DNA of 64,000 bases, from the NCBI GenBank assembly GCA_008125075.1, contig VLTH01000002.1, forward strand, positions 1,781,451-1,845,450. Direction: 5' to 3'. Positions within the stretch are counted from its first letter, which is position 1; every line of letters begins with the position of its first letter. Below the pieces are notes generated by a model that worked only from the letters and a program-made list of their open reading frames with translations, ran no database searches and was not told the origin of the DNA. Made by a program: the position numbers and the translations under genes. The DNA is from Acetivibrio alkalicellulosi (GTDB lineage: Bacteria > Bacillota > Clostridia > Acetivibrionales > Acetivibrionaceae). Shown piece by piece: positions 4,273-20,285 of this stretch.

Positions 4273-5475
4273 CTAATTAAAAATGCCCACTCTTTCATAT
4301 AAGTCTTTAAGCTTTTTTAAATCTATTTCTTTAGCCGAGTAAACAGTTTCTAGCCTTTTTATAGATCTATCTTTTCTATATAAGAATCCAAGAATTAATC
4401 TAATAATCCAGAAAACAGGTAGCAAAAAAGGAAGCACATTTAATACCTTAAATATTTTTTTCATTTTTTTCAATGGAGGAAAAAACAGTCTTAAGCCAAA
4501 CATATGCTTTGCTTTCTTTGAGTCTATTTCTTTTACATCATTTTCAATCAAAGATAATAAAGCACCATTTTTCACTGTACCATATACCCCACTTGATAAT
4601 ATATAGTCTCCCATCTCAATATATAATTTATCAAAGTCTTTATTTTTTGTTTCTCCATTAAACCACATATTTGCCAGAGCTCTGCTGTTTTTCTCGAATT
4701 CCAAAAGATTTAGTTTTCCTAATTGAGATTTAATGTATTCTAAATCCAATTCATTTTTAAAGTGTTTATTATACATAAATATATCAATAATATTTCGAAT
4801 GCCTGATCCATACTTTTTAAAGTGTATTGTATAATGAACAACTAAGTAAATATAAAAATCTTCTTTTGATAGCTTATATATATATTCTGATTGTTCTCTA
4901 TTAATAACCTTCTCCCATATGTTTTTATAGTAACTTAAATATGGTTCCATATTATCAGTAAGAATCTTGTGCATCTCTATAGTTATACATGGTTTTTTAT
5001 AGTATTTTTCATGCTTATCACCTTTATTCTCAAGAGCATATCCCACATTTTTCATAATTTCTCTTACTAAAGGAGTTTTTTCTTCTTTGTACAAAATATC
5101 TACATCCCCCATAGTTCTCATATCAGCCGAAGGATATAGGTGCTTAATAATATATCCTTTAAGGGGCATACATTCAATTTTGTTTTCTTCAAACTTTTCA
5201 AGTAGCATTTCTACCATTAAGTGTTGAGTAGCTTCACGTGCCATTGCTTTTTTGTAGTCAAAATACATTTTTTCCCCTATATCTTTTGGAGGTTTATATG
5301 TATCTTCTAAATTACGAGTGCTATAATAAATCATATTGGAAACACTATGAAAACACGCTAATTTATATACTAATTCCCAATTTAAATTTTCAGGTGGTTT
5401 ATCTGCCTTTTTTTCATTAATTGCAGCAGATATTAAATGAATCAAATATGATTTTTCATTAGCATTAACATTCAC
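4273..5475 (-). CDS. Nucleotidyltransferase family protein (NTP_transf_5-like)
   Basis: Start GTG at 5475 is chosen because AGGAGG lies 7 nt upstream; a longer frame upstream has no RBS. That gives 400 residues. The fold signature is PLKGYIIKHLYP followed by MRTMGDVDIL at about residues 118-128, typical of the NTP_transf_5 group of the polymerase-beta superfamily. A hydrophobic stretch VLPFLLPVFWIIRLILGFL near residue 350 suggests membrane association. It overlaps the ABC transporter gene by 11 bp, so translation is probably coupled. Related genes occur in paeninodin-type RiPP clusters, where they are proposed to act on phosphorylated peptides. That role here is inference. Confidence 0.75.
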   Translation of the reverse strand: MNVNANEKSYLIHLISAAINEKKADKPPENLNWELVYKLACFHSVSNMIYYSTRNLEDTYKPPKDIGEKMYFDYKKAMAREATQHLMVEMLLEKFEENKIECMPLKGYIIKHLYPSADMRTMGDVDILYKEEKTPLVREIMKNVGYALENKGDKHEKYYKKPCITIEMHKILTDNMEPYLSYYKNIWEKVINREQSEYIYKLSKEDFYIYLVVHYTIHFKKYGSGIRNIIDIFMYNKHFKNELDLEYIKSQLGKLNLLEFEKNSRALANMWFNGETKNKDFDKLYIEMGDYILSSGVYGTVKNGALLSLIENDVKEIDSKKAKHMFGLRLFFPPLKKMKKIFKVLNVLPFLLPVFWIIRLILGFLYRKDRSIKRLETVYSAKEIDLKKLKDLYERVGIFN

Positions 5476-7150
5476 AAAAACTCCTCCTCTCCTCAAAAAT
5501 TTTTCCGTCTTTAAGATAGAAGACTTTATTATATAAAGATGATAATGTATTCTTATGTGATATAATAATAAAAGTCCTGTTAACATGTTTTTTTAGATTT
5601 AATAGTACTTTTTTCTCGGTAGACTCATCTAATGCAGATGTTGCCTCGTCTAAAAGTAATATGGGTGCATCACTTAAAACTGCTCTTGCAATAGCAATCC
5701 TTTGAATTTGGCCTTCTGATAACCCTTGTCCTTTTTCTCCAATTATTGTATCAAGCTTTAATGGAAGCATACTTATAAACAGGTCTGCACAACTAATTTG
5801 TGCTGCTCTCATAATTTGCTCATCAGTTGCATCTTTATTAAAAAATGAAATATTATCCCTGACTGTACCTGAAATCAATATATTTTTTTGAGGTACATAA
5901 GCAAAATACTTTCTTGTATAACAATCAACATCAATCTTTGTACCTTTTGTTGTTTTTAAATATATCTCACCTTCTTTAGCTGGATATATTCTAAGTAAAA
6001 GCTTTAACAAAGTGCTTTTTCCAATACCTGAAACCCCTCTTAACAGTGCAAAATCTCCTTTTGCTACAATTAAATTTACATTGCTTAAAACCAACTTTTC
6101 TCCATATGTGAAGGATACTTTCTCAAATGCTATAAAATCAATATCAAAAAACTCTTTATTATTTTTGTCATCTTTTTTATTAATATCTGACTCATCTAAA
6201 AGCTCTTCAAGCTCAATAATCCTTTCGGCTGAAGCCATAGCACCATAAACTTTTGGCATAAGCCCTGATAAACCTGAAAAAGGAAGCTGTAATTGTGATA
6301 CCAGTTGCAACATAGCTGTTAACGTTCCAAATGAAATGTTGTTTTCCATTAGCTCAAAAGAATTCCACACCAAAGCGTATATGTAACAAATTGCAAATAC
6401 AAAAGAAAAACCTGCACTAGATAACATTGTAAAAATATTTTTGTGTCTTTTTGCATCATAGTGTTGTTGTTGAAGATCTTTTGATTTGCTTAGCATTGTT
6501 TTCTCTATTCTAAACACCTTAACAACAATGATATTTTCCAGCAATTCATAAATGAACGACTGTAACATTCCATCTTTTTGCTGTACATTTTTATGCAGTT
6601 CTTTTACTTTATTTCTCAGTAATCTAGATACAAAGAAAACAACTGTTCCAACTACTAAAAATATTACTGTAAACACTCTATTTAAAATAAACAAGACCGT
6701 AAAGACAGAAAATAGCTTTGTAAGAAGCTTAACCGAATCAGGTATAACGGTTGCCACATTCTCACTTACCTTAAGTATATCTGACGTAATCCTGCTCATC
6801 ACATCTCCCTTGTGATATTGTTGCATATGTGAGTATTCTTTTTGAACAAACTTTCCTAATACACTTGTCTTATAGCAGTTTTCAAGTTTGTTTTGAATAT
6901 TTTGCCCGGTATATTTACAATACATATTTAGTCCAAGTTGAAATAACACCAAAAAAAGCAACAATGCACCATACATAAATAATCCATTTTTATACCCAGC
7001 AGCAGCATTGTCAATTAATCCCCGTGAAGCAAGAGCAATAAATACTCCACTTACTGCTGCTATTATATTGGCAAAAACTAAAATACACATGGGAACTATT
7101 TGAGATTTAGAATTTTCATATATCCATTGTAAAACTTTTTTATCTTTCAT
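5465..7150 (-). CDS. ABC transporter, fused permease and ATPase (peptide exporter type)
   Basis: About 561 residues: an N-terminal six-helix exporter domain, then an ATPase with Walker A GVSGIGKST, signature LSEGQIQRIAIARA, Walker B ILLLDEATSALDE and the H-loop in IIISHKN. There is no N-terminal C39 peptidase domain, so any leader removal would need another enzyme; the adjacent S26-type peptidase fits. Start 7150 is preferred: GGAG lies 6 nt upstream and the ATG overlaps the stop of the peptidase gene (ATGA). An ATG at 7162 is possible but has a poor RBS. The likely cargo is a modified peptide, inferred from context. Confidence 0.9.
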   Translation of the reverse strand: MKDKKVLQWIYENSKSQIVPMCILVFANIIAAVSGVFIALASRGLIDNAAAGYKNGLFMYGALLLFLVLFQLGLNMYCKYTGQNIQNKLENCYKTSVLGKFVQKEYSHMQQYHKGDVMSRITSDILKVSENVATVIPDSVKLLTKLFSVFTVLFILNRVFTVIFLVVGTVVFFVSRLLRNKVKELHKNVQQKDGMLQSFIYELLENIIVVKVFRIEKTMLSKSKDLQQQHYDAKRHKNIFTMLSSAGFSFVFAICYIYALVWNSFELMENNISFGTLTAMLQLVSQLQLPFSGLSGLMPKVYGAMASAERIIELEELLDESDINKKDDKNNKEFFDIDFIAFEKVSFTYGEKLVLSNVNLIVAKGDFALLRGVSGIGKSTLLKLLLRIYPAKEGEIYLKTTKGTKIDVDCYTRKYFAYVPQKNILISGTVRDNISFFNKDATDEQIMRAAQISCADLFISMLPLKLDTIIGEKGQGLSEGQIQRIAIARAVLSDAPILLLDEATSALDESTEKKVLLNLKKHVNRTFIIISHKNTLSSLYNKVFYLKDGKIFEERRSFCEC

Positions 7151-7614
7151 TTCATTCTCCATGCTCTAAACCTTTTGCACAATGACTTAAACTTATATAC
7201 ACAGAATCTAAAGGGATATGTAATACTCCATATTCTAACGTAAATTCTATAGTATAAATTGTCACAGGAATAATATTTTTCATTTCTCCAAAAACCTTTG
7301 ACTACTCCCACTACTTGAGAATGCTGAACAAAATGCTCTTTTATAGCCTGATTGTCACCTATAATCACATAGCCATCTGAGTTTACTTTTACAATTCTGT
7401 GTAAAACAAATTTACCATCTGGTCGAATAAATAGTGGAATATCATATTTTTTCAAAATTTGTTTTTCCGATCTTTTAATACACACCCTGTCTCTTTTATG
7501 ATGTAACATAGGAAGCATACTATTGCCCATAATTGTAAAAATAACTTCTCCCCCATTATTCATAATTTCTTCCATCAAGGCATGTGTCTGTGACAAATTA
7601 ACCTTATTAATCAA
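7147..7614 (-). CDS. S24/S26-family peptidase (signal-peptidase-like)
   Basis: 155 residues. GNSMLPML holds the nucleophile Ser32; DIPLFIRP and FVLHRIVKV with His72 follow, then GYVIIGDN. A His at the position of the usual Lys base resembles the ER/SipW type of signal peptidase. There is one weakly hydrophobic segment near residues 120-140 and a basic C-terminus. It overlaps the PqqD-like gene by 8 bp and the exporter gene by 4 bp. In this setting it is a candidate leader peptidase for the small peptide at 10064-10159 (inference). Confidence 0.8.
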   Translation of the reverse strand: MINKVNLSQTHALMEEIMNNGGEVIFTIMGNSMLPMLHHKRDRVCIKRSEKQILKKYDIPLFIRPDGKFVLHRIVKVNSDGYVIIGDNQAIKEHFVQHSQVVGVVKGFWRNEKYYSCDNLYYRIYVRIWSITYPFRFCVYKFKSLCKRFRAWRMK

Positions 7615-7870
7615 TTAAATCAGCATCCTTTAGCTTCTCAACAAATTCAAAAACATCCCTCTTTGCTGTTTTTTCATCTATATCATATTCATTTATAAGC
7701 TCACTAGTCAAATTCTCAACAGTATTATCCTCCAAAAGTTGTTTCCACAAAAAAGCACCTGTATCATTTAGTGTTATCATTCCATTAAAGTCAACAGTTG
7801 CATCTCCCACTGGGACTACTACATGATTTTTTGCAATTTCTCTTATCATATACCCTGGCTTTATTTTCAT
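7607..7870 (-). CDS. PqqD-like RiPP recognition element protein
   Basis: 87 residues with the PqqD pattern: an N-terminal strand region with GDATVDFNGMITLNDTGAFLW, then helices with VENLTSELINEYDID and DVFEFVEKLKDADLI. Stand-alone PqqD-like proteins bind leader peptides and present them to modifying enzymes. It is transcribed between the kinase and peptidase genes and overlaps the latter, which marks this operon as a peptide-tailoring system. Confidence 0.88.
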   Translation of the reverse strand: MKIKPGYMIREIAKNHVVVPVGDATVDFNGMITLNDTGAFLWKQLLEDNTVENLTSELINEYDIDEKTAKRDVFEFVEKLKDADLID

Positions 7871-7912: not shown

Positions 7913-8629
7913 TTATGTCTTTAAATTAACTACATTATATATTAGTTTTACAGCATCTGTACTAATGTTACACTTTAACTTATATATTGGTATTCTCTCA
8001 AGCAATAGATCTAAGAGACCAAGTAGTTTCTCCATCTTTTGCTCATTATTGGCTAAAGGACGTAAACTCTGATTTATCAATAGTTTCAAAGCTTCCTTAG
8101 CATCTAAACGCCTTACACTATTATTTTCTGCCTGCTCTAAAAAAACAATTGCTTTTAGTGGTACTTTAATATTTGAATTTAAATTGTTTTTTCCACTCCA
8201 TGGTGTCCCATAAACATAAAAAGCATCCTCAACAAAACGTAAAGCCGGCTTGTCATCATTTATGATAACAGCTCTATCCTTTCCAAAGTAGTCTTGCCAA
8301 AGACTTGTATGAGTAGACTTTCCTGTCCCACATGGAGCTGAAAACAATACTGCCACATGGTCTAAAGCAACTGCCGAAGAGTGTAAGCAAAATCCATTAA
8401 AATCAAATATATTATCAGCAAATATACACCCTGTATATATATATTCTAATTCATTTAAAGATAATTGGGGATACCTTTTACTTAAATTTTCAAGTTTTTC
8501 ATTATCCATATCTATTTTTATATCAGCACAGCTAATTTCACTACTAAAATATTTCTTTGAGCGCTCTTGAAGCATTTTTTTTAAGCATTCCATTTGTATA
8601 TTTAAATCAGCAATTTTGTAAAAGCTCAC
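7913..8629 (-). CDS. HPr-kinase-like protein kinase (RiPP-associated type)
   Basis: Start GTG at 8629 is chosen for the AGGGAG RBS 8 nt upstream, giving 238 residues. It has the HprK C-terminal fold without the N-terminal HPr-kinase domain: Walker A SAPCGTGKSTHTSLW at about residues 97-111, NDDKPALR as the acidic metal and phosphate-binding motif, then GTPWSGK. Relatives such as PadeK phosphorylate the C-terminal Ser of lasso precursors. A peptide substrate is therefore likely here, and the nearest candidate is the 31-residue ORF upstream. The substrate is inference; the fold is seen. Confidence 0.82.
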   Translation of the reverse strand: MSFYKIADLNIQMECLKKMLQERSKKYFSSEISCADIKIDMDNEKLENLSKRYPQLSLNELEYIYTGCIFADNIFDFNGFCLHSSAVALDHVAVLFSAPCGTGKSTHTSLWQDYFGKDRAVIINDDKPALRFVEDAFYVYGTPWSGKNNLNSNIKVPLKAIVFLEQAENNSVRRLDAKEALKLLINQSLRPLANNEQKMEKLLGLLDLLLERIPIYKLKCNISTDAVKLIYNVVNLKT

Positions 8630-8829: not shown

Positions 8830-9978
8830 CTAGTAATCTACTATATCTGCTCTTTCTTCATCATCTGTATCTGGATTGCCTGTATCTGGCTTGTCTGTAT
8901 TATCTGAATCTGGCTGCTTATCTTCTGAAGGTTCACCTGAAGAAGAATCCCCTGGCCCTGTGTGTGAAGGTGGACTGTCAGAAGGTGCTGGATCGGATGT
9001 TCCTCCTGAAGGTGGTACATCAGAAGCTGTACTGTCAGTTTCAGTAGCTGGTATCTCATTTTCTCCCTTTTCTACTGGTTCTTCTACATATACTAAAACT
9101 ACATCTTCTTTTTCTATATTGACTTCTCCTAAATCGCTGTCCATTACTTTAATATCATATTTACCTCCACCTCTAATAAAGGTGGTTCCACTTATATAAA
9201 CATCTTTTAAAAAGACTTCTCCCTCTCCAATTCCCTCTGCCAAATAGAGATTGCCTGTAATCCTCATGTTTTTTAGAGTAGCACCAGAAGTATTAACTAC
9301 AACGTTGCCATCTATATTTTCAGTATACTCACCTGGCGCATTTATAAAAAGATCTATAATATTATCCAATAATTGAACCATCTCTGCTCTTGTTAAATTA
9401 CTGTTAGGCTCAAAAAGCCCGTCACCTTTCCCTCTGATATAACCAGATGATTCCATTGCAAATATGGCATCTTCTGCCCACCTAGGTAATTTGTCATCCT
9501 TAAAACTTGTTTTAAAATTCAAAGGCATTACAATTGAAAATACATTTTTAAATATAACTGCTGCTTCAGCACGAGTCAAAGGATCATTAGACCTTGCCAT
9601 TGGATTACCATTTTCATCAGGACTTCCTTTTATTATTCCATGTGCATACGCCCTAATTACTGCATCATAATACCACTCATCTCCCTTTAAATCTGTAAAA
9701 GGATTACTTATTGTTTTATTAAATCCAAATATCTTATTTAATATAACAATCATTTCAGCCCTAGTAATATTATTATTAGGATTAAAATTTACTCCATCTC
9801 CCTTAATTACACCTTTGTCCTTCCAATTATCAATTGCAGGTTTTGCCCAGAAGTCCTCCCTCACATCCTGAAATTCAATTTTCAAATCTGATGCCAATAC
9901 ATTTATTCCAGATATAACATTTAGCAAAACTACCCCTATAGTAAATACTATGTAATAAAAAAATCTTTTGTTTTTCAT
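8830..9978 (-). CDS. SLH-domain surface protein with Pro/Ser/Asp-rich C-terminus
   Basis: 382 residues. A signal peptide covers about residues 1-30. Three SLH modules follow at about 36-86, 93-147 and 159-212, each ending in a TRAE motif; these anchor proteins to pyruvylated secondary cell-wall polymer. A beta-rich segment (about 217-303) contains GNVVVN, GNLYLAEG and TTFIRGGG, resembling the solenoid repeats of the neighbouring secreted proteins. The last 80 residues are a low-complexity Pro/Ser/Thr/Asp tail ending in ADIVDY. RBS AGGAGG is 6 nt upstream. It sits between the small peptide gene and the kinase gene, so it may be part of the same unit. Confidence 0.88.
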   Translation of the reverse strand: MKNKRFFYYIVFTIGVVLLNVISGINVLASDLKIEFQDVREDFWAKPAIDNWKDKGVIKGDGVNFNPNNNITRAEMIVILNKIFGFNKTISNPFTDLKGDEWYYDAVIRAYAHGIIKGSPDENGNPMARSNDPLTRAEAAVIFKNVFSIVMPLNFKTSFKDDKLPRWAEDAIFAMESSGYIRGKGDGLFEPNSNLTRAEMVQLLDNIIDLFINAPGEYTENIDGNVVVNTSGATLKNMRITGNLYLAEGIGEGEVFLKDVYISGTTFIRGGGKYDIKVMDSDLGEVNIEKEDVVLVYVEEPVEKGENEIPATETDSTASDVPPSGGTSDPAPSDSPPSHTGPGDSSSGEPSEDKQPDSDNTDKPDTGNPDTDDEERADIVDY

Positions 9979-10014: not shown

Positions 10015-10054
10015 ATAGTAGAGCAGGCAAACATAAGTCTGCCTGCTCTACTAT
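10015..10054 (-). terminator. Strong hairpin between peptide ORF and SLH gene
   Basis: ATAGTAGAGCAGGCA (10015-10029) pairs perfectly with 10040-10054 around a 10-nt loop. No long U-run follows on either strand, so it may be an mRNA-stabilising or partial terminator hairpin. Such hairpins often lie between a small, highly expressed precursor gene and downstream modification genes. Confidence 0.6.
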
Positions 10055-10063
10055 TGTCTCTAA

Positions 10064-10159
10064 TTAAGGAACATCCACCATGTCTGGAGTACTACATGTA
10101 ATGTCCTCAATTTCAAATTTTGTTACTTCAATTTCTGGCTTTTCATATTGCTTTTTCAA
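10064..10159 (-). CDS. 31-residue putative RiPP precursor peptide
   Basis: A short ORF starting with TTG at 10159, with GGAGGTG placed 7-8 nt upstream inside the end of the preceding gene, 2 nt after that gene's stop. The peptide starts MKKQYEKPEIEVTKFEIEDI, continues with Thr-Cys-Ser-Thr-Pro-Asp and ends MVDVP. A Lys-rich start, a Tyr-x-Lys-Pro motif and an acidic middle are features of lasso/paeninodin-type and similar RiPP leaders. The C-terminal part carries one Cys, one Ser and two Thr. The PqqD-like protein, HPr-like kinase, S26 peptidase and exporter lie just downstream. Precursor identity is inference from the leader and context. Confidence 0.65.
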   Translation of the reverse strand: MKKQYEKPEIEVTKFEIEDITCSTPDMVDVP

Positions 10160-10161
10160 CT

Positions 10162-11901
10162 TTATTCACCTCCCATTTCTGCCTTTGCTGTAATTTCACT
10201 ATATACAGTGATAATATTACCATTTAAATCCCTGTAAATCAGGTATCCTCTTCCATACCAAATTTCACCATCTAGTACGTTAATCTTTCGAATATAAAAC
10301 TGATTTGTTGAATCATTATTGATTCTTCCTTTTACTATGTTTTGTGTATCTAGTGTTATTTCATCTTCAGGATCTGTATCTGATTTAAGTAAAATCACAC
10401 CACTTTCAATTAATGAATAACCTTCTACCATATTTCTAGTAGCAGTAAACATAACTGTTTTTCCATCATTATCTACTAAAACATCATTAGATAATGCAAT
10501 AAATGGACTGTACTCTACAACTTCTTCCTCATCAACAAAAACAGCCGTTAGTGTTATGTCTTTCTTTGGCATAAAGAAAGTATAAGTATTATCAATGCTT
10601 ATTTTCAATCCATCCATTTCCCAGTGACTAAATATCATTTGGTCTATCACATCTGCTATAACTTGAACCTCTACATCAAACAAATATTGTCCTACTGTAT
10701 TCCCTGACATCAAAGTGCCATTAACAACATTTACACTATATTCATCAGAAAGTCTTTGGAATATAGGTGATATAGTCATATTAGATGTAACATTGCTAAA
10801 ATCCTTATTCCATCCTACAAATTCATATCCTATCAAACGAGGATCTGCTGGTGGAATAGCAGCTTGATTTTTAAGAACCTTTGTTGACTGCAATATCTTT
10901 TTACTTCTATCTAAGAATACTACGTTAAACTCTTCTGTTACAGTTTCATTAAATACTGCCTTTAGATTTGCTCCTGTTCCCAAAACAAAATTAAAAATTG
11001 GGTTTAATGAAATTATCCTTTTAATTTCAATATCTTCCCAATAAGAAAACTCTGAACCAACACCTGCTTCTGCTTCCAATTTAATGTTTTTCTCAATTTC
11101 AAAACTGTGTTTATAATTGTCTGGTAAAATCTCATTATCATTAAGAATAACATAACCATCTCCAGCAACGCTAACCTCTAGCATGCTCTTTTCATAAAGC
11201 TCTTTTAATATCATCCAAACATCTTGGTCATTAATGAAATTATACCTTTTTTCCAGCGGTCTGTCTATGCACAATATGTAAAATCTAGATTTTTTTCGGT
11301 TTTCAAATTCTATTGTCTGATTACCCTTCCCATTTAATATTACACTATGAGAACCGCTAGCATAAAAACTCTCCGGGCTTCCACCTTTTTGAGTGAAATC
11401 ACCCTTTATTTCCATTGTACCTCCTGAGAGTTTTCCCTTATGAGAAATGTTTGAATTCATCACAAAACTTCCATGAACTTTTACATAATCCAATATATTG
11501 GTCATTTCAAGACTTGCATTAACACTAGTACCATTTTTCCCAATTATATAGTTACCTTCTATCTCAATATCTCCTGCATTTACAAATACTGTACCTCCCT
11601 TTTGAAGTAAATCTCCTTTTATCGTTAATTTCTTACCGTTTATATCAAGCCGACCATAACACATTGTAAGATTTCCTTCTATTATAGTGTTTTGTTGTAA
11701 TTTCATGTCACCTGTCAATATGATGTTATGAGGTAATATTAAATCTTCGCCATCTTCTGTTATAAAACTAAGTTTGCCGATTTCTAAGTCGTCCTCTGAG
11801 AAAAAACCCTCTTGTGAACATACCCCCACAGAAGTGTTTAAAGCCATAACAAATACTAAAATACCAAACAACAAAATGCATTTTCTTACTTTTCCGTACA
11901 T
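10162..11901 (-). CDS. Secreted beta-solenoid / InlB B-repeat protein (paralogue 1)
   Basis: 579 residues from the ATG at 11901, chosen because GGGAGG is 8 nt upstream; an ATG 6 nt earlier is too close. A signal peptide covers about residues 1-28. Residues 40-200 form short repeats of the type GDLxxxGGTVxxNxGxxxxxG, suggesting a beta-solenoid. The central part has an InlB B-repeat (VVFLDRSKKILQST ... GYEFVGWNKDF) and a bacterial-repeat segment ending FFMPKKDITLTAVF. The C-terminal ~130 residues (EGYSLIESGVILLKS ... YLIYRDLNGNI) recur in the two paralogues. It is probably a cell-surface or matrix protein; no anchor motif is seen. Confidence 0.8.
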   Translation of the reverse strand: MYGKVRKCILLFGILVFVMALNTSVGVCSQEGFFSEDDLEIGKLSFITEDGEDLILPHNIILTGDMKLQQNTIIEGNLTMCYGRLDINGKKLTIKGDLLQKGGTVFVNAGDIEIEGNYIIGKNGTSVNASLEMTNILDYVKVHGSFVMNSNISHKGKLSGGTMEIKGDFTQKGGSPESFYASGSHSVILNGKGNQTIEFENRKKSRFYILCIDRPLEKRYNFINDQDVWMILKELYEKSMLEVSVAGDGYVILNDNEILPDNYKHSFEIEKNIKLEAEAGVGSEFSYWEDIEIKRIISLNPIFNFVLGTGANLKAVFNETVTEEFNVVFLDRSKKILQSTKVLKNQAAIPPADPRLIGYEFVGWNKDFSNVTSNMTISPIFQRLSDEYSVNVVNGTLMSGNTVGQYLFDVEVQVIADVIDQMIFSHWEMDGLKISIDNTYTFFMPKKDITLTAVFVDEEEVVEYSPFIALSNDVLVDNDGKTVMFTATRNMVEGYSLIESGVILLKSDTDPEDEITLDTQNIVKGRINNDSTNQFYIRKINVLDGEIWYGRGYLIYRDLNGNIITVYSEITAKAEMGGE

Positions 11902-12139
11902 AGTCATTACCTCCCATATATATTTTATTACTTAACATGGTTTATGAGTATATAAAACACAAACATAATACAAGCAGTATGTTTATAATTTATCAACACA
12001 AACCATTTATAAGTCACTCAAGATGAAAAAATGTGATTATTGTTCTATTTATTAGTACATCTTAATAAATTCCAATTCAAAAAAGCGGAAGTAATTATTC
12101 ATAAGTTATGATACATTGTGTAAAATTCCATTTGTAAAC

Positions 12140-12223: not shown

Positions 12224-13429
12224 TTAGTTTTTAGCATCCTTCAAACTACCACTGGCAGTAGTTTTACTATATACAGTTATTATGTTTCCCTCTAAATCCT
12301 CATATACCATATATGCTCTTCCAAACCAAATGTCATCTGATCTAACATTTAACTTACGTATATAAAACTGGTCTGTTGAATTATTATCTATTTTGCCCCT
12401 TATTCTATTTTCAGTATTAAGTGTAAGTGGATTATTCATCTCATTTCTTGAATTTAGTAATATAACTCCACTTTCTATTAATTTATATCCATAAGTAGTA
12501 TTTCTATATGCACAAAACATTATTGTGTTATCATTAATATCTATTAGTACATCTTCTGCTAATGTAATAAATGGCTTTGTATCAATAGTATCTGACTCTT
12601 CTACATAAACTGCAGTTAATACAGTATCCCGTTTTGGCATAAAGAAAGTAAACTCAATTTTACTACTTATTCTCACGCCATCTTGTTCCCAATGACTAAA
12701 TTTCTTTCCTTCTTCTGCCTCATTTGCAACAACTCTTATAGGCATGTCAAACTGATACTCTCCTTGTGTATCTCCTGTTGGGAGCATCCCACCAACAACA
12801 TTTATTGAGTATTTATCAGGTAATCTTATAAATCTTGCACTAATAATCATATTAGAATTAACATTTCTATAGTCTTTATCCCATCCTGTAAACTCATATC
12901 CTATCATTTCTGTCACTCTTGGCGCTCTAACTGAAAAATTCCTACTAACATATGATGATTGTAGTATTCTTTGACTCCTATCTTTAAAAAGAACTGTAAA
13001 AAAATTAGTTTCTTCTTTAGGAGTTCTATAAAATACCGCTTTTAAATTCTCACCTGTTCCCATAATAAACTCATAAACTGGCTGGGTAGAAATAATTTTA
13101 CCCACATCACTGTCTTCCCAATAGACAAATTCAGAATCTGGATTTGCAGTTGCAACTAATTTTATTCTTGTGCCCATATCATAACTGTTTTTAAAGTTTG
13201 AAGGCAAGGTTAGTTGTTCATCATTAATTTTTACAAAACCATCCCCCACAGTAGTTACTTCCAATAAACTTTTTCTCGTAATAATCGGTATTTCATTTTC
13301 TTCTACTAATTCATTCTCACTTAAAGTTAAATTTGTGTTAATAGTATCATTAGCCCAACACAATACAAAAGAACAGCTTAAAACAAATACAAATGCTAAA
13401 AGAAAAACTATACCTTTAATAGTTCGCAT
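12224..13429 (-). CDS. Secreted InlB B-repeat protein (paralogue 2, no solenoid)
   Basis: 401 residues. The signal peptide covers about 1-27 (FLLAFVFVLSCSFVLCWA). It aligns along its length with the C-terminal two thirds of its neighbours: a LEVTTVGDGFVKINDE segment, VLFKDRSQRILQSS with GYEFTGWDKDY (InlB type), KFSHWEQDGVRIS with FFMPKRDTVLTAVY, and a C-terminal module with YKLIESGVILLNS. The N-terminal solenoid repeats of the others are absent. AGGAGG lies 7 nt before the ATG. It is a likely product of tandem duplication followed by loss of the solenoid part. Confidence 0.8.
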   Translation of the reverse strand: MRTIKGIVFLLAFVFVLSCSFVLCWANDTINTNLTLSENELVEENEIPIITRKSLLEVTTVGDGFVKINDEQLTLPSNFKNSYDMGTRIKLVATANPDSEFVYWEDSDVGKIISTQPVYEFIMGTGENLKAVFYRTPKEETNFFTVLFKDRSQRILQSSYVSRNFSVRAPRVTEMIGYEFTGWDKDYRNVNSNMIISARFIRLPDKYSINVVGGMLPTGDTQGEYQFDMPIRVVANEAEEGKKFSHWEQDGVRISSKIEFTFFMPKRDTVLTAVYVEESDTIDTKPFITLAEDVLIDINDNTIMFCAYRNTTYGYKLIESGVILLNSRNEMNNPLTLNTENRIRGKIDNNSTDQFYIRKLNVRSDDIWFGRAYMVYEDLEGNIITVYSKTTASGSLKDAKN

Positions 13430-15484: not shown

Positions 15485-16417
15485 CTACTGTTCTTTATTA
15501 ATTCTTGATATAAATTCATCTATGCTAGAAGCCTTAGCTGCTAACTTATGCCATTTTCTTAGGGTCTCTATATTTTTCTCATTCCTTATAGTTTGCTCTA
15601 ATTCATATGGTATATCTGATAATTCTTCTAATAATTCAAGAATAGATTCTATTTTCTCTTTTTCAATTCCTTTTTCCATTCCTTCTTCTAAATATTTATT
15701 TTTTAAATTAAATTTTTCCATTATACTCTCTAGTCTTTCCATATCTTTATCTGTCAACTTATATGCCATTTCATACACCTCCATAATCTTACTTACATGT
15801 ATAGTTGTTATTATATTCATCAATGATTCATATAAATTGTTTTTAGGCTCTTTTATTGATTCATCTATTACCTCTAGCATCTCTGCCTTTATATTTGCTC
15901 TTTTAGTAAGTAACCTTATATATCTATTTACCTTTCCTGGCAATTGGTCTATGACTATTATCTGTGTTGCTATGTCTTCTCCTTCAATGTAATATATTCC
16001 TTTGCTATGGTTAACAATATTCTTATGTCTCTTACTTTTTATATGCTCAGTCATTGCTTTTGGATAATTATTACTAACTAACGTTATACTTATATCCTGC
16101 AACTTTATTGAATCAACTTTATCAACTAATGTCTTATATAAATATGCATAAGCTTTTACTTTATAATAATCGTCTATACTTATATAATCATCGGGTGATT
16201 TATATTCAATTATATTATGTCCAACAAATATCTGTGCTATATTTCTTAGTATAGTTACATCTTTTCGTTTTTTTATTACCAATATATCAACTGCAAGTGG
16301 TTTTGAACTTAACTGATGCTCTTCTTCTATCTCTAATATTTCTGGATAATATTCTTTTAATTCAAGCTTCATTGCTGCTGCAAACACTGGATGCCATTGT
16401 ATCTTTTCACTCCCCAA
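15485..16417 (-). CDS. Rpn-family / PD-(D/E)XK nuclease-transposase protein
   Basis: 310 residues. The nuclease core is LAVDILVIKK followed by GHNIIEYKSPDD, that is Asp and Glu-x-Lys of the PD-(D/E)XK fold, at about residues 43-76. A Glu/Lys-rich helix with EGMEKGIEKEKIESILE stands near the C-terminus, typical of Rpn proteins (recombination-promoting nuclease or putative transposase). Start TTG has AGGAAG about 9 nt upstream. It is framed by the two 103-bp repeats. A fragment nearly identical to residues around 190-235 survives at 20177-20285. Confidence 0.82.
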   Translation of the reverse strand: MGSEKIQWHPVFAAAMKLELKEYYPEILEIEEEHQLSSKPLAVDILVIKKRKDVTILRNIAQIFVGHNIIEYKSPDDYISIDDYYKVKAYAYLYKTLVDKVDSIKLQDISITLVSNNYPKAMTEHIKSKRHKNIVNHSKGIYYIEGEDIATQIIVIDQLPGKVNRYIRLLTKRANIKAEMLEVIDESIKEPKNNLYESLMNIITTIHVSKIMEVYEMAYKLTDKDMERLESIMEKFNLKNKYLEEGMEKGIEKEKIESILELLEELSDIPYELEQTIRNEKNIETLRKWHKLAAKASSIDEFISRINKEQ

Positions 16418-16583: not shown

Positions 16584-16685
16584 AAAACAAACCCACCAAG
16601 TAGATATATTATTTCAATACCACTTGGTGGGTTTGTTTATTTTATTTATTTCCTATTTCTATAATCTTAAATTTCTCCTTTTGCA
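16584..16685. repeat. 103-bp repeat copy 2, terminator of the 16667-19819 gene
   Basis: Matches 15217-15319 closely. Perfect 17-bp arms (16585-16601 and 16622-16638) form a hairpin just after the stop of the large secreted-protein gene, whose last codons are part of the repeat. With copy 1 it frames the Rpn gene. Confidence 0.85.
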
Positions 16686-19600
16686 GTTATTTCACTGTAA
16701 GATGTATTAATATTACCTCTAGAATCCTCATAAATGATATATGCTCTTGCATACCAGATTTCTCCCTTTTCAACATTCATCTTACGAACATGAAATTGGT
16801 CTGTAGAATTATTGTTTATTCTTCCTCGCAAAATATTTTCAGTTTCTAAAGTTATGGTATCTTCTAAGCTAACATCTGACTTTAATAAAATAACTCCACT
16901 TTCTACTAATGAATATCCTTTTGTAACATTTCTATTTGCTGTAAACATAATAGTTTTACCTTCAGTATCTATAATTGCTTTTTCTGATATACTTATAAAA
17001 GGTTCCTGGCTTATACTCTCTACACTATCTACATAAAAAGCAACCAATGCAGTATCTCTCTTAGGCATAAAGAACGAAAAATTTATATCATTACTAATTT
17101 TAATTCCATCCTGTTCCCAATGGCTAAATTTCATTCCCGATGGTGGAGCATCTGCAATAACTCTAACTGGCATATCAAACTGATATTCTCCCGCCATATC
17201 TCCTGTTGATAATTTACCACCTGCAACAGTTATAATATATGTATCTGGCAATCTTTTAAATACAGCTGATACTATCATATCAGAATCCACATTACTAAAG
17301 TCTTTATCCCATCCAACAAAATCATATCCAGTTATAAAAGGATCTTCAGGTGGTGTTGCTGCTGAATTTTTTTCAACAATTGCAGATTTTAGTATGCTGC
17401 CACTTTTATTTTTAAATATAACTGAAAATCTTTCTTCATCTTTTATGTTAAAAACTGCTCTAACACTTTCATCTGTTCCCATTACAAATTCATACACAGG
17501 GTTATCGGATATTATTCTTTTTAGCTCAACATCTTCCCAATATGCAAATTCTGCACCAGAGTCTGTAACAGCAGTTAGTATTATATTTGCACCTTGATTA
17601 TGTTCCTGCTTATAATTTGAAGGCAAACTTTCATCATTCATTTTTACAAAACCATTACCACTAACAGTTACCTCTAAAATACTCTTAGGCCAGTCAATCA
17701 TGCATTGCTTCAATGTAACCCATACTTCCACATCATTTGTAAAGTTATAACCTGTTTCAAAAGGTTTAGTAATGCAAAGTATATTAAATTTAGATATACC
17801 TGGACTTTGAAAACTAACTGTCTGCACTTCTTTTCCGCTTAGTATTACTTTGTGAGTCCCACTTGCTATAAAATTCCAGTTAGTGGAGTATATATTATTT
17901 CTTCCTTGTATAAAGTCTCCCTTTATTTCCATTGTTCCTGCTGTCAAACTAAAATTATGGCTATTAATTGAATAGGTTATAAAGCTTCCTCCTATCCATA
18001 CTCTGTCCATTTCATTTGTCATATTTAATAACCCATAAACATTGTTGTCCTCATTTCCTATTTTATAATCTCCCTCTACTTCTAATTCTCCTCCATTTAT
18101 GTTTACTGTCCCTCCGTCTTGTATCAGATCTCCTTCTACTTCTAATTTTCCTTTATTTAAATTAATTGTTCCTCCATTTATTATCAGATCTTTACCTTCT
18201 AGTGTTAATCTACTTCCATTTAAATTTAGCGTTCCTCCATTTACTATTATCTTACCATCTATTAATAAATCACCTCCAGCTAAATCCATCATCCCTTCGT
18301 CTAGTACTAAATCACCTCTCACTATCAGACTATATTCTCCTAAATTCAGGGTTCCTCCTTTTAAATTTAAGTCTCCATTAAACTCTTTATCTTCTTTCAG
18401 AGTAAAATTTGCTGCCCATAATGGTAGCTCTGTTGTTTTATATCCATTTAATATTATATCTCTTACTGGTAGTGCACTTTCAAATTTTATTCCTTCTTCT
18501 GATTTGTTTTTTATTTCTAATATATTAAATGTTGATGTTCCTGGACTTTGAAAACTTACTGTCTGTTCATCTTCTCCACTTAATATTACTTTGTGAGTCC
18601 CACTTGCTATAAAATTCCAGTTAGTGGAGTATATATTATTTCTTCCTTGTATAAAGTCTCCCTTTATTTCCATTGTTCCTGCTGTCAAACTTCCACTATG
18701 ACTACTAATTGAATAGGTTATAAAGCTTCCTCCTATCCATACTCTGTCCATTTCATTTGTCATCCTTAATATACCGTTTACATTGTTGTCCTCATCCCCT
18801 ATTATATAATCTCCCTCTACTTCTAGCTCTCCTCCGTTTATGTTCACCGTTCCTCTGCCTTGTATTAGATCTCCTTCTACTTCTAATTTTCCTTTATTTA
18901 AATTAATTGTTCCTCCATTTATTATCAAATCTTTACCTTCTAGTGTTAATTTACTTCCATTTAGATTTAGCGTCCCTCCATTTACTATTATCTTACCATC
19001 TATTAATAAATCACCTCCAGCTAAATCCATCATCCCTTCGTCTAGTACTAAATCACCTCTCACTATCAGACTATATTCTCCTAAATTCAGGGTTCCTCCT
19101 TTTAAATTTAAGTCTCCATTAAACTCTTTATCTTCTTTCAGAGTAAAATTTGCTGCCCATAATGGTAGATCTGTTGTTTTATATCCATTTAATATTATAT
19201 CTCTTACTGGTAGTGCACTTTCAAATTTTATTCCTTCTTCTGATTTGTTTTTTATTTCTAATATATTAAATGTTGATGTTCCTGGACTTTGAAAACTTAC
19301 TGTCTGTTCATCTTCTCCACTTAATATTACTTTGTGACTTCCGCTTGCTACAAAATTCCAGTTAGTGGAGTATATATTATTTCTTCCTTGTATAAAGTCT
19401 CCCTTTATTTCCATTGTTCCTGCTGTCAAACTTCCACTATGGCTATTAATTGAATAGGTTATAAAGCTTCCTCCTATCCATACTCTATCCATTTCATTTG
19501 TCATCCTTAATATACCGTTTACATAGTTGTCTTCACTTCCTATTCTATAATCACCCTGTACTTCTAGTTCTCCTCCATTTATGTTCACCGTTCCTCCGTT

Positions 19601-19819
19601 TTGTATCAAATCTCCTTCTACTTTTAAACTGTAACCATTTAAGTTTAAAGTACCATTTGTTATTTCTAGATTCCCTGTTATTCTTTTGTCTTCACTTAAC
19701 GTCACATTTTCATTAATAATCTCTCCATTAATAGAGGCTTCCACCAAGCACACTCTCATAACCATAATTAGTGCTAAAAGTCCCCAAAATATAATTCCTT
19801 TTCTTGCTTTTGTACCCAC
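16667..19819 (-). CDS. Giant secreted beta-solenoid / InlB repeat protein (paralogue 3)
   Basis: 1050 residues, GTG start with AAGGAGG 7 nt upstream. Signal peptide about 1-29. Residues about 40-700 are solenoid-like repeats (GGTLNLNGSKLTLEGKDL, GGTVNINGGELEVEGDY) organised in a 247-residue unit present twice in full and once in part, with almost no divergence. The C-terminal ~340 residues match the other two paralogues: InlB-type GYDFVGWDKDFSNV, SHWEQDGIKIS with FFMPKRDTALVAFY, and the final module ending ITAKGEI. No sortase or SLH anchor is seen. A fibrous matrix or surface role is inference. It has its own promoter (20081-20108) and terminator. Confidence 0.82.
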   Translation of the reverse strand: MGTKARKGIIFWGLLALIMVMRVCLVEASINGEIINENVTLSEDKRITGNLEITNGTLNLNGYSLKVEGDLIQNGGTVNINGGELEVQGDYRIGSEDNYVNGILRMTNEMDRVWIGGSFITYSINSHSGSLTAGTMEIKGDFIQGRNNIYSTNWNFVASGSHKVILSGEDEQTVSFQSPGTSTFNILEIKNKSEEGIKFESALPVRDIILNGYKTTDLPLWAANFTLKEDKEFNGDLNLKGGTLNLGEYSLIVRGDLVLDEGMMDLAGGDLLIDGKIIVNGGTLNLNGSKLTLEGKDLIINGGTINLNKGKLEVEGDLIQGRGTVNINGGELEVEGDYIIGDEDNNVNGILRMTNEMDRVWIGGSFITYSISSHSGSLTAGTMEIKGDFIQGRNNIYSTNWNFIASGTHKVILSGEDEQTVSFQSPGTSTFNILEIKNKSEEGIKFESALPVRDIILNGYKTTELPLWAANFTLKEDKEFNGDLNLKGGTLNLGEYSLIVRGDLVLDEGMMDLAGGDLLIDGKIIVNGGTLNLNGSRLTLEGKDLIINGGTINLNKGKLEVEGDLIQDGGTVNINGGELEVEGDYKIGNEDNNVYGLLNMTNEMDRVWIGGSFITYSINSHNFSLTAGTMEIKGDFIQGRNNIYSTNWNFIASGTHKVILSGKEVQTVSFQSPGISKFNILCITKPFETGYNFTNDVEVWVTLKQCMIDWPKSILEVTVSGNGFVKMNDESLPSNYKQEHNQGANIILTAVTDSGAEFAYWEDVELKRIISDNPVYEFVMGTDESVRAVFNIKDEERFSVIFKNKSGSILKSAIVEKNSAATPPEDPFITGYDFVGWDKDFSNVDSDMIVSAVFKRLPDTYIITVAGGKLSTGDMAGEYQFDMPVRVIADAPPSGMKFSHWEQDGIKISNDINFSFFMPKRDTALVAFYVDSVESISQEPFISISEKAIIDTEGKTIMFTANRNVTKGYSLVESGVILLKSDVSLEDTITLETENILRGRINNNSTDQFHVRKMNVEKGEIWYARAYIIYEDSRGNINTSYSEITAKGEI
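17800..19642. repeat. 741-bp intragenic tandem repeat (2.5 copies)
   Basis: Unit 1 is about 19642-18902, unit 2 about 18901-18161, and a partial third copy runs to about 17800. Long stretches are identical between units (for example around 18360-18600 versus 19101-19341). Unit borders are approximate. The period is 247 codons, so the reading frame is kept. The near identity points to recent duplication or gene conversion. Confidence 0.85.
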
Positions 19820-20161: not shown

Positions 20162-20176
20162 CTATATATCTACTTT

Positions 20177-20285
20177 CATTATACTCTCTAGTCTTTCCAT
20201 ATCTTTATCTGTCAACTTATATGCCATTTCATACACCTCCATAATCCTACTTACATGTATAGTTATCAATGATTCATATAAATTG
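20177..20285 (-). pseudogene. Remnant of an Rpn-family gene
   Basis: Nearly identical to about 15715-15845 of the Rpn gene (codons for SRIMEVYEMAYKLTDKDMER), with a small internal deletion and no start or nuclease core. It sits right after ugd, between that gene and the unit terminator. Confidence 0.85.

Follow-up and report, generated by a model that had tools for sequence, protein, structure and literature searches.

Acetivibrio is a genus of cellulolytic Clostridia. The window, that is, the whole stretch of 64,000 nucleotides of Acetivibrio alkalicellulosi DNA analysed here, carries on its minus strand a short gene that most likely encodes the precursor of a ribosomally synthesized and post-translationally modified peptide (RiPP), placed between two genes for surface proteins and upstream of a cassette of candidate maturation genes. 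Residues of LppA, LppB and LppS mentioned below refer to the linear polyphosphorylated peptide (LPP) system lppAKBSDN of Paenibacillus alginolyticus DSM5050 (PMC13381572, Nat Commun 20 May 2026). The features of the locus are the following, with coordinates given as positions in the window:

4273–5586, minus strand: NTP_transf_5 nucleotidyltransferase (PF14907, E = 5.4e-54)
5465–7162, minus strand: MsbA-like ABC exporter
7147–7614, minus strand: S26/S24-like peptidase of the archaeal/SipW type, predicted leader peptidase, with Ser32 and His72
7607–7870, minus strand: PqqD-family RRE; its N35 and D72 correspond in alignment to LppB N33 and D70, which contact the leader
7913–8629, minus strand: HprK-like kinase (GTG start at 8629 assigned here) with the catalytic H, K, S, D and D of lasso kinases
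8830–9978, minus strand: SLH-domain protein (PF00395) with a low-complexity linker and a tail, ..ERADIVDY, resembling the precursor end PDMVDVP
10015–10054, minus strand: strong RNA hairpin between the precursor and SLH genes, with an 18-bp stem and a 4-nt loop
10064–10159, minus strand: precursor peptide gene, 31 aa, with leader MKKQYEKPEIEVTKFEIEDI, predicted core TCSTPDMVDVP and, by analogy with LppA, predicted phosphosite Ser23
10162–11907, minus strand: secreted-looking surface protein with InlB-type repeats (PF18998) and a signal-like N-terminus
10165–10518, minus strand: C-terminal Ig/FN3-like beta domain of that surface protein (from alignment; AlphaFold pLDDT 93.7, all beta)

The short ORF had been singled out, in a reading of the sequence alone, for its TTG start and well-placed GGAGGTG, and both are indeed present at 10064–10159 on the minus strand. 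The ORF, translated as MKKQYEKPEIEVTKFEIEDITCSTPDMVDVP, runs from the TTG to a TAA stop, and GGAGGTG lies just 5′ of the start, within the 3′ end of the preceding gene (10162–11907). The stop codon of the latter gene is located 2 nt before the precursor start, so that the two are probably translationally coupled. The same gene order is found in two genomes of the same genus (L007 and L008), where the corresponding peptides are MKKPYEKPEMEITKFETEDIAYSAPDPSGMDGIDLN and MKKPYEKPELEITRFETEDIAYSVPDPSGMEGIDLD, respectively. Over 36 codons, these two orthologues differ at 3 first, 2 second and 20 third positions (20 of 25 differences at third positions), and 17 codons differ synonymously versus 5 nonsynonymously; the comparison of synonymous and nonsynonymous changes proposed in the sequence-only reading thus returned a coding pattern. 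The window ORF is a genuine conserved gene. That it is instead a chance ORF, as its small size, TTG start and lack of a match to any Pfam or NCBIfam family could suggest, is extremely unlikely given its conservation across classes and the third-position bias, which refutes such an origin unless the pattern stems from another overlapping feature.

The strong hairpin described after the ORF was recovered as well. The 105-nt stretch around it folds with −38.8 kcal/mol (z = −8.0 vs shuffles), and the hairpin is followed by CGTTAC, with no immediate T run. In six of eight other loci folded, a hairpin is likewise predicted 3′ of the precursor, there without shuffle controls. The possibility that the hairpin is a dispersed repeat element was rejected, given that it occurs at one genome location at up to 3 mismatches. 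A stem word, CAGGCAG or GCAGGCA, is common to the window, L007, L010 and L011, just 3′ of the precursor, and is perhaps part of a conserved attenuator or processing site.

The gene order and family matches bear out the earlier description of an SLH gene followed by an operon for the RRE, kinase, peptidase and exporter. The kinase retains each of the H, K, S, D and D residues in 83 of 83 relatives, and the top Foldseek matches of its AlphaFold model (pLDDT 92.5) are HPr kinase and PEPCK (best E = 3.9e-6). The same residues matter in the lasso peptide kinase BsfK, as does G163 (parts of PMC9266682 and PMC10368454), the counterpart of which by spacing is Ala here and in 80 of the 83 relatives. 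The PqqD protein matches lasso B1 structures; N35 and D72 were identified from an alignment with 9x8z_B (E = 0.076) in which the spacing between the two residues is equal (37 residues), and are found in 51 and 49 of 61 relatives, respectively. The peptidase scores below the cut-off with both TIGR02228 (1.2e-6) and the SipW model (3.2e-4), and its Ser32 and His72 are conserved in 51 of 51 relatives, with no counterpart of LppS D93 identified. The nucleotidyltransferase ORF as listed overlaps the exporter gene, and its true start probably lies further downstream. Among ten window proteins scanned against Pfam and NCBIfam, no immunity gene and no radical SAM gene was recognised, and the Pfam scan of these proteins yielded no lasso cyclase. 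Elsewhere in the window, a perfect 58-bp palindrome with 29-nt arms and no spacer (1972–2029) lies just downstream of guaA, and a short ORF at 20162–20269 nearly repeats part (..SRIMEVYEMAYKLTDKDMERLESIM) of a 310-aa ORF without a Pfam match at 15485–16417, which suggests a mobile or duplicated gene.

To collect relatives of the precursor, we assembled 82 loci, namely, the window, L007 and the best 80 of at least 575 kinase loci. A leader profile seeded with 14 peptides picked by eye was iterated over the 15185 short ORFs of these loci. At E ≤ 4.3e-7 it retrieved 19 ORFs, five of them in addition to the 14 seeds, with the next match only at E = 4.9; matches to the loose leader pattern by itself were not enriched on the strand of the kinase (224 plus, 365 minus). 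When loci from whole-genome searches were added, with L001–L006 and L088–L103 left out as duplicates of other loci, 69 profile matches collapsed to 58 distinct peptides, the start codons of which were set by our own ribosome-binding-site rule. These peptides share the motif YxxPx(I/L)E(I/V)xxFxxED(I/V), usually followed by TxS and then by a variable, mostly acidic C-terminus. Counted from Tyr as position 0, the 58 peptides contain Y in 56, P+3 in 58 (the alignment anchor, and hence by construction), E+6 in 44, I/V+7 in 52, F+10 in 54, E+13 in 40, D/E+14 in 53, I/V+15 in 51, T+17 in 34 and S+19 in 44. Ser is found at +18 or +19 in 48 of the 58 peptides (at +18 for Ser23 of the window) and is absent from both positions in 10. 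The C-terminal part contains Ser/Thr in all 58, is net acidic in 50 and includes Cys in only 6. A Pfam/NCBIfam scan of 51 members gave no match common to two of them (best single match E = 0.0025), and the clostridial leader profile is therefore one covered by no curated model. Members of the family were seen in Clostridia and in a second class of the same phylum; a phylum-wide draw added little (4 of 398 genomes at E 1e-5), and the class of genome G808 yielded 8 of 110 genomes at the same threshold.

The leader had been likened to those of lasso and related precursors, and this holds as far as YxxP. The YxxPx(I/L) sequence is the lasso RRE-binding motif, the PqqD protein resembles lasso B1, and Thr is common near the leader end (+17), all of which would suit a lasso precursor with its cyclase encoded elsewhere in the genome. 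Nevertheless, a search for the lasso B2 peptidase (PF13471, Transglut_core3) found it in none of 16 precursor-bearing genomes (the control search matched 2 of 14 known genomes), the place of B2 is taken by a SipW-type peptidase, and there is no conserved Asp/Glu at the ring-closure site, the best candidate being D in 17 of 58 peptides at +24. A lasso peptide is thus very improbable.

Related short ORFs that combine a conserved leader with a variable C-terminus beside such cassettes, which the sequence-only reading had suggested looking for, do exist: of the 72 kinase loci whose upstream sequence extends to 2 kb or more, 16 carry a same-strand precursor within 2.1 kb upstream of the kinase. No such ORF was found within this distance in the remaining 56, which indicates that many of the kinases act on something else, on substrates encoded far away, or on none. 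At 11 kinase loci without a detected precursor (L033, L035, L037, L042, L050, L053, L054, L059, L063, L066 and L084), proteins that share the C-terminal domain of the window surface protein end 82–500 nt upstream of the kinase; other leader types missed by the profile may be present there. In an order-level set of 58 genomes, the precursor was found in 6, all of which contain the kinase at E < 1e-110, compared to some kinase match in 18 of the 58. In a class-level draw of 393 genomes, at least six of the precursor-bearing ones having supplied members of the search profile, a precursor was found in 40 and a kinase match in 101, and the two coincide in 39 genomes (Fisher p = 5e-25). Five of these 39 have a partial kinase match (G072, G135, G220, G284 and G417). 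The sole exception, G270, bears a precursor, and no kinase was found in it. Conservation beside such cassettes, the absence of which had been named as refuting evidence, is therefore observed.

In some genomes, many precursors are scattered, with at least 16, 14 and 10 copies in G235, G071 and G070, respectively, and many copies in such multi-copy genomes reside on contigs other than that of the kinase. Of 20 regions fetched around scattered precursors, the leader profile found the precursor again in 18 (all except L166 and L167), and each of these 18 precursors lies behind a larger ORF, most of which are secreted-looking where complete. G808 and G839 each contain three precursor–kinase loci, complete to differing degrees. 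The kinase gene of L193 (6464–7489) is split over two overlapping frames, whereas L195, from the same genome, and L194, from G839, carry nearly the same core as L193 with an unsplit kinase.

The nearest partner of the precursor, a point absent from the sequence-only reading, is the large surface protein encoded upstream. Taking as the partner the longest ORF (minimum 80 codons) that ends between 400 nt before and 40 nt after the start, both for precursors and for the control, we found that for 51 of the 58 precursors a larger upstream ORF ends within 65 nt of the start codon, compared with 755 of 7479 other short ORFs in the same 56 loci; 49 of these 51 upstream ORFs are at least 200 codons long. 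Signal-like N-termini, called with a crude hydrophobicity rule and no trained predictor, are present in 27 of 31 complete upstream ORFs located within 70 nt (incomplete or distant ones are excluded from the 31) versus 221 of 627 background ORFs (p = 9e-9). The beta-sandwich C-terminus of the window surface protein can be aligned with the C-termini of 14 further proteins, including two encoded in the window, and has weak Foldseek matches only (to ApaG, FN3 and Ig folds), the best of which, at E = 1.5e-3, falls short of 1e-3. The two window proteins with the same C-terminal domain are surface proteins encoded at 12224–13429 and 16667–19819, and no precursor was found behind either. In L007, the surface gene upstream of the precursor (4629–6376) is broken up into two ORFs that lie in different frames.

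This tight coupling to the upstream gene, together with the many copies on contigs without the kinase in multi-copy genomes, could be taken to mean that the peptide is a small companion of the surface protein with a structural or regulatory part, such as a subunit, a chaperone-like peptide or a translational coupler, with the cassette merely nearby. Against this speak the link to the kinase across genomes (39 of 40), the agreement of the leader with the RRE-binding motif and the conserved Ser at, or next to, the spacing of the phosphorylated Ser3 of LPP, and we consider such a companion role improbable.

At ten loci, the stretch between precursor and kinase codes for a second protein, which is an SLH protein, a lipoprotein-like protein or a protein of no recognised kind. 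The close relatives of the window SLH protein end, past a variable linker, in a conserved tail such as ADIVDY, GDITEY or ADIGDY. The fixed tail pattern is present in 13 of 32 close relatives versus 1 of 88 more distant SLH proteins, and a terminal Tyr in 26 of the 32 versus 10 of 40 distant proteins inspected. In part of the loci, the tail resembles the predicted core of the precursor encoded next to it, the core/tail pairs being GGEIIDG/GGEIIDY (L196), GGDIGDY/GADIGDY (L201), GIEDGEE/GIEDGGE (L051), GWGDL/GWGPL (L055), GGDIIDL/GADTVEL (L011) and DMVD/DIVD in the window, where the match spans only four residues (p = 0.023). Across the ten loci, own tail/core pairs beat permuted pairs with p = 0.0003; with L007 and L008, of the genus of the window, dropped, the eight remaining loci give p = 0.0004 (L010 and L196 are also of one genus), and the five SLH loci give p = 0.042. 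An earlier test with 7 loci had mixed results, and the present one is not fully independent because the hypothesis arose from part of the same data, L196, L201 and L205 having joined from later searches after it was framed. No resemblance was detected in L007, L008, L010 and L205 (own-pair shuffle p > 0.1), so that the idea of tail/core resemblance as a universal per-locus rule was rejected, 4 of 10 loci showing none. Several loci fall outside the test: in L047, L058 and L074 the protein by the kinase is lipoprotein-like or of the SLH type and no precursor was detected, L049 has no clear same-strand gene in between (the long ORFs there are on the opposite strand), and in L198 no intervening ORF on the strand of the precursor reaches 50 aa.

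Considered as a whole, these observations are best explained by an LPP-like peptide gene whose product is matured by the cassette and acts at the surface of the producer, a reading that we regard as likely. By analogy with LPP, the YxxP leader would hold the precursor on the PqqD-type RRE, the HprK-like kinase would likely phosphorylate Ser23, the SipW-type S26 peptidase would likely cut after Ile20 to release the core TCSTPDMVDVP, and the MsbA-like exporter would carry the mature peptide out of the cell, with further decoration by the NTP_transf_5 enzyme possibly coming first. The cut, core and phosphosite are predicted from the parts of the cassette, the conserved residues and the Tyr-to-Ser spacing. 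An initial reading placed the cleavage after TxS by the −3/−1 rule of signal peptidases: small residues occur together at +17 and +19 in 45 of the 58 peptides (shuffled mean 9, maximum 20); in the window peptide, the residues there are Cys and Thr, respectively. This site was later demoted because the phosphorylated Ser of LppA is core residue 3 in the main text of PMC13381572, so that LppS cuts before the Ser.

As for the function, it is possible, if on balance doubtful, that the product is an ordinary secreted antimicrobial or signal and that the neighbourhood of surface proteins and the tail resemblance are incidental. The variable C-terminus and the exporter would suit such a molecule, the biological role of LPPs is still open at the close of PMC13381572, and four of the ten loci lack the tail resemblance; however, most modules have a secreted-looking protein directly upstream, tails and cores co-vary over the ten loci, and the ten scanned window proteins include no recognisable immunity gene. 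Because the precursors lie directly behind secreted-looking proteins and tails co-vary with cores, the LPP-like peptide proposed here seems rather to act at the producer's own cell surface: the evidence hints at a partner of the adjacent surface protein, perhaps a ligand that an anchoring protein shares, and makes a freely diffusing toxin less likely. The pairing with secreted proteins and the core-like tails render the role of a linear phosphorylated RiPP directly testable through binding and localisation. A bolder and distinctly tentative extension is a genome-wide peptide code, in which one cassette would serve many precursors, each produced along with a secreted protein of its own, with the phosphorylated cores and the core-like tails of wall- or membrane-anchored proteins being ligands of the Ig-like C-terminal domains of the secreted proteins. 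If so, docking, display or release of individual surface proteins would be governed by the modification of the peptides, and LPP-type peptides would gain their first testable function.

Comparison with described systems helps to place the family. The cassette proteins ScmC and ScmD of SynChlorMet show a weak family resemblance, the kinase and the PqqD protein scoring far below the cut-offs of the ScmC (TIGR04249; 1.8e-7) and ScmD (TIGR04248; 2.3e-6) models, and differing from that system in that the scanned window proteins include no recognised radical SAM protein. As far as the published descriptions go, the systems of the phosphorylated lasso peptides paeninodin and Bsf share with the window the kinase H, K, S, D and D, the discrete PqqD RRE, a nucleotidyltransferase and an ABC exporter. 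The differences are that no B2 peptidase was found here, its place being taken by the SipW-type enzyme, that only 1 of 58 precursors ends in Ser/Thr and that paeninodin leaders carry WxxP. In parts of PMC9266682 and PMC10368454, Bsf is reported to be phosphorylated on Ser3, with the C-terminal Ser not used. Parts of PMC7533575, PMC5067487 and PMC10885120 were also drawn upon.

The closest counterpart is LPP. According to the main text of PMC13381572, the set consists of the precursor LppA, the HprK-like kinase LppK, the RRE LppB, the SipW-like peptidase LppS, the exporter LppD and the NTP transferase LppN, with no cyclase. LppK adds one to four phosphates to core Ser3 of LppA, leader cleavage by LppS is RRE-dependent and needs S29, H68 and D93, N33 and D70 of LppB contact the leader, and no activity was detected for LppN. 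The window cassette has all the corresponding parts, that is, an HprK-like kinase, a discrete RRE, a SipW/archaeal-type peptidase, an MsbA-like exporter and an NTP transferase; this five-gene set is established for the window, and some related loci lack one or more of the parts. Further likenesses are the YxxP leader with a Tyr-to-Ser spacing of 18, as in LppA, the Asn and Asp of the RRE, and the Ser and His of the peptidase.

The differences from LPP, as presented in the same text, concern the leader, the taxonomic range and the genomic setting. The LppA motif is YxxPxVLxHQxIxFETxxS, whereas past YxxP the clostridial leaders run IEIxxFExEDI(I)TxS, and the LppA consensus is thus absent beyond YxxP and Ser. 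The published genome mapping covers Bacilli, in contrast to Clostridia and one further class here, and the neighbours are capsule loci there and surface proteins here. LPP clusters hold 1–3 precursors each, compared to up to 16 or more dispersed over a genome in the present family, which in part of its loci also encodes, in between, a protein whose tail is core-like. The main text of PMC13381572 contains none of the words clostridi, S-layer, SLH, cell wall, exported, adhesin and surface, and no report of a clostridial peptide/surface-protein pairing was found in the open-access literature searched. The pairing with upstream proteins, the scattering of at least 16 precursors and the core-like tails are points beyond those in that text. 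The differing leader consensus is the reason why we describe the family as an LPP-like variant and not as a plain member.
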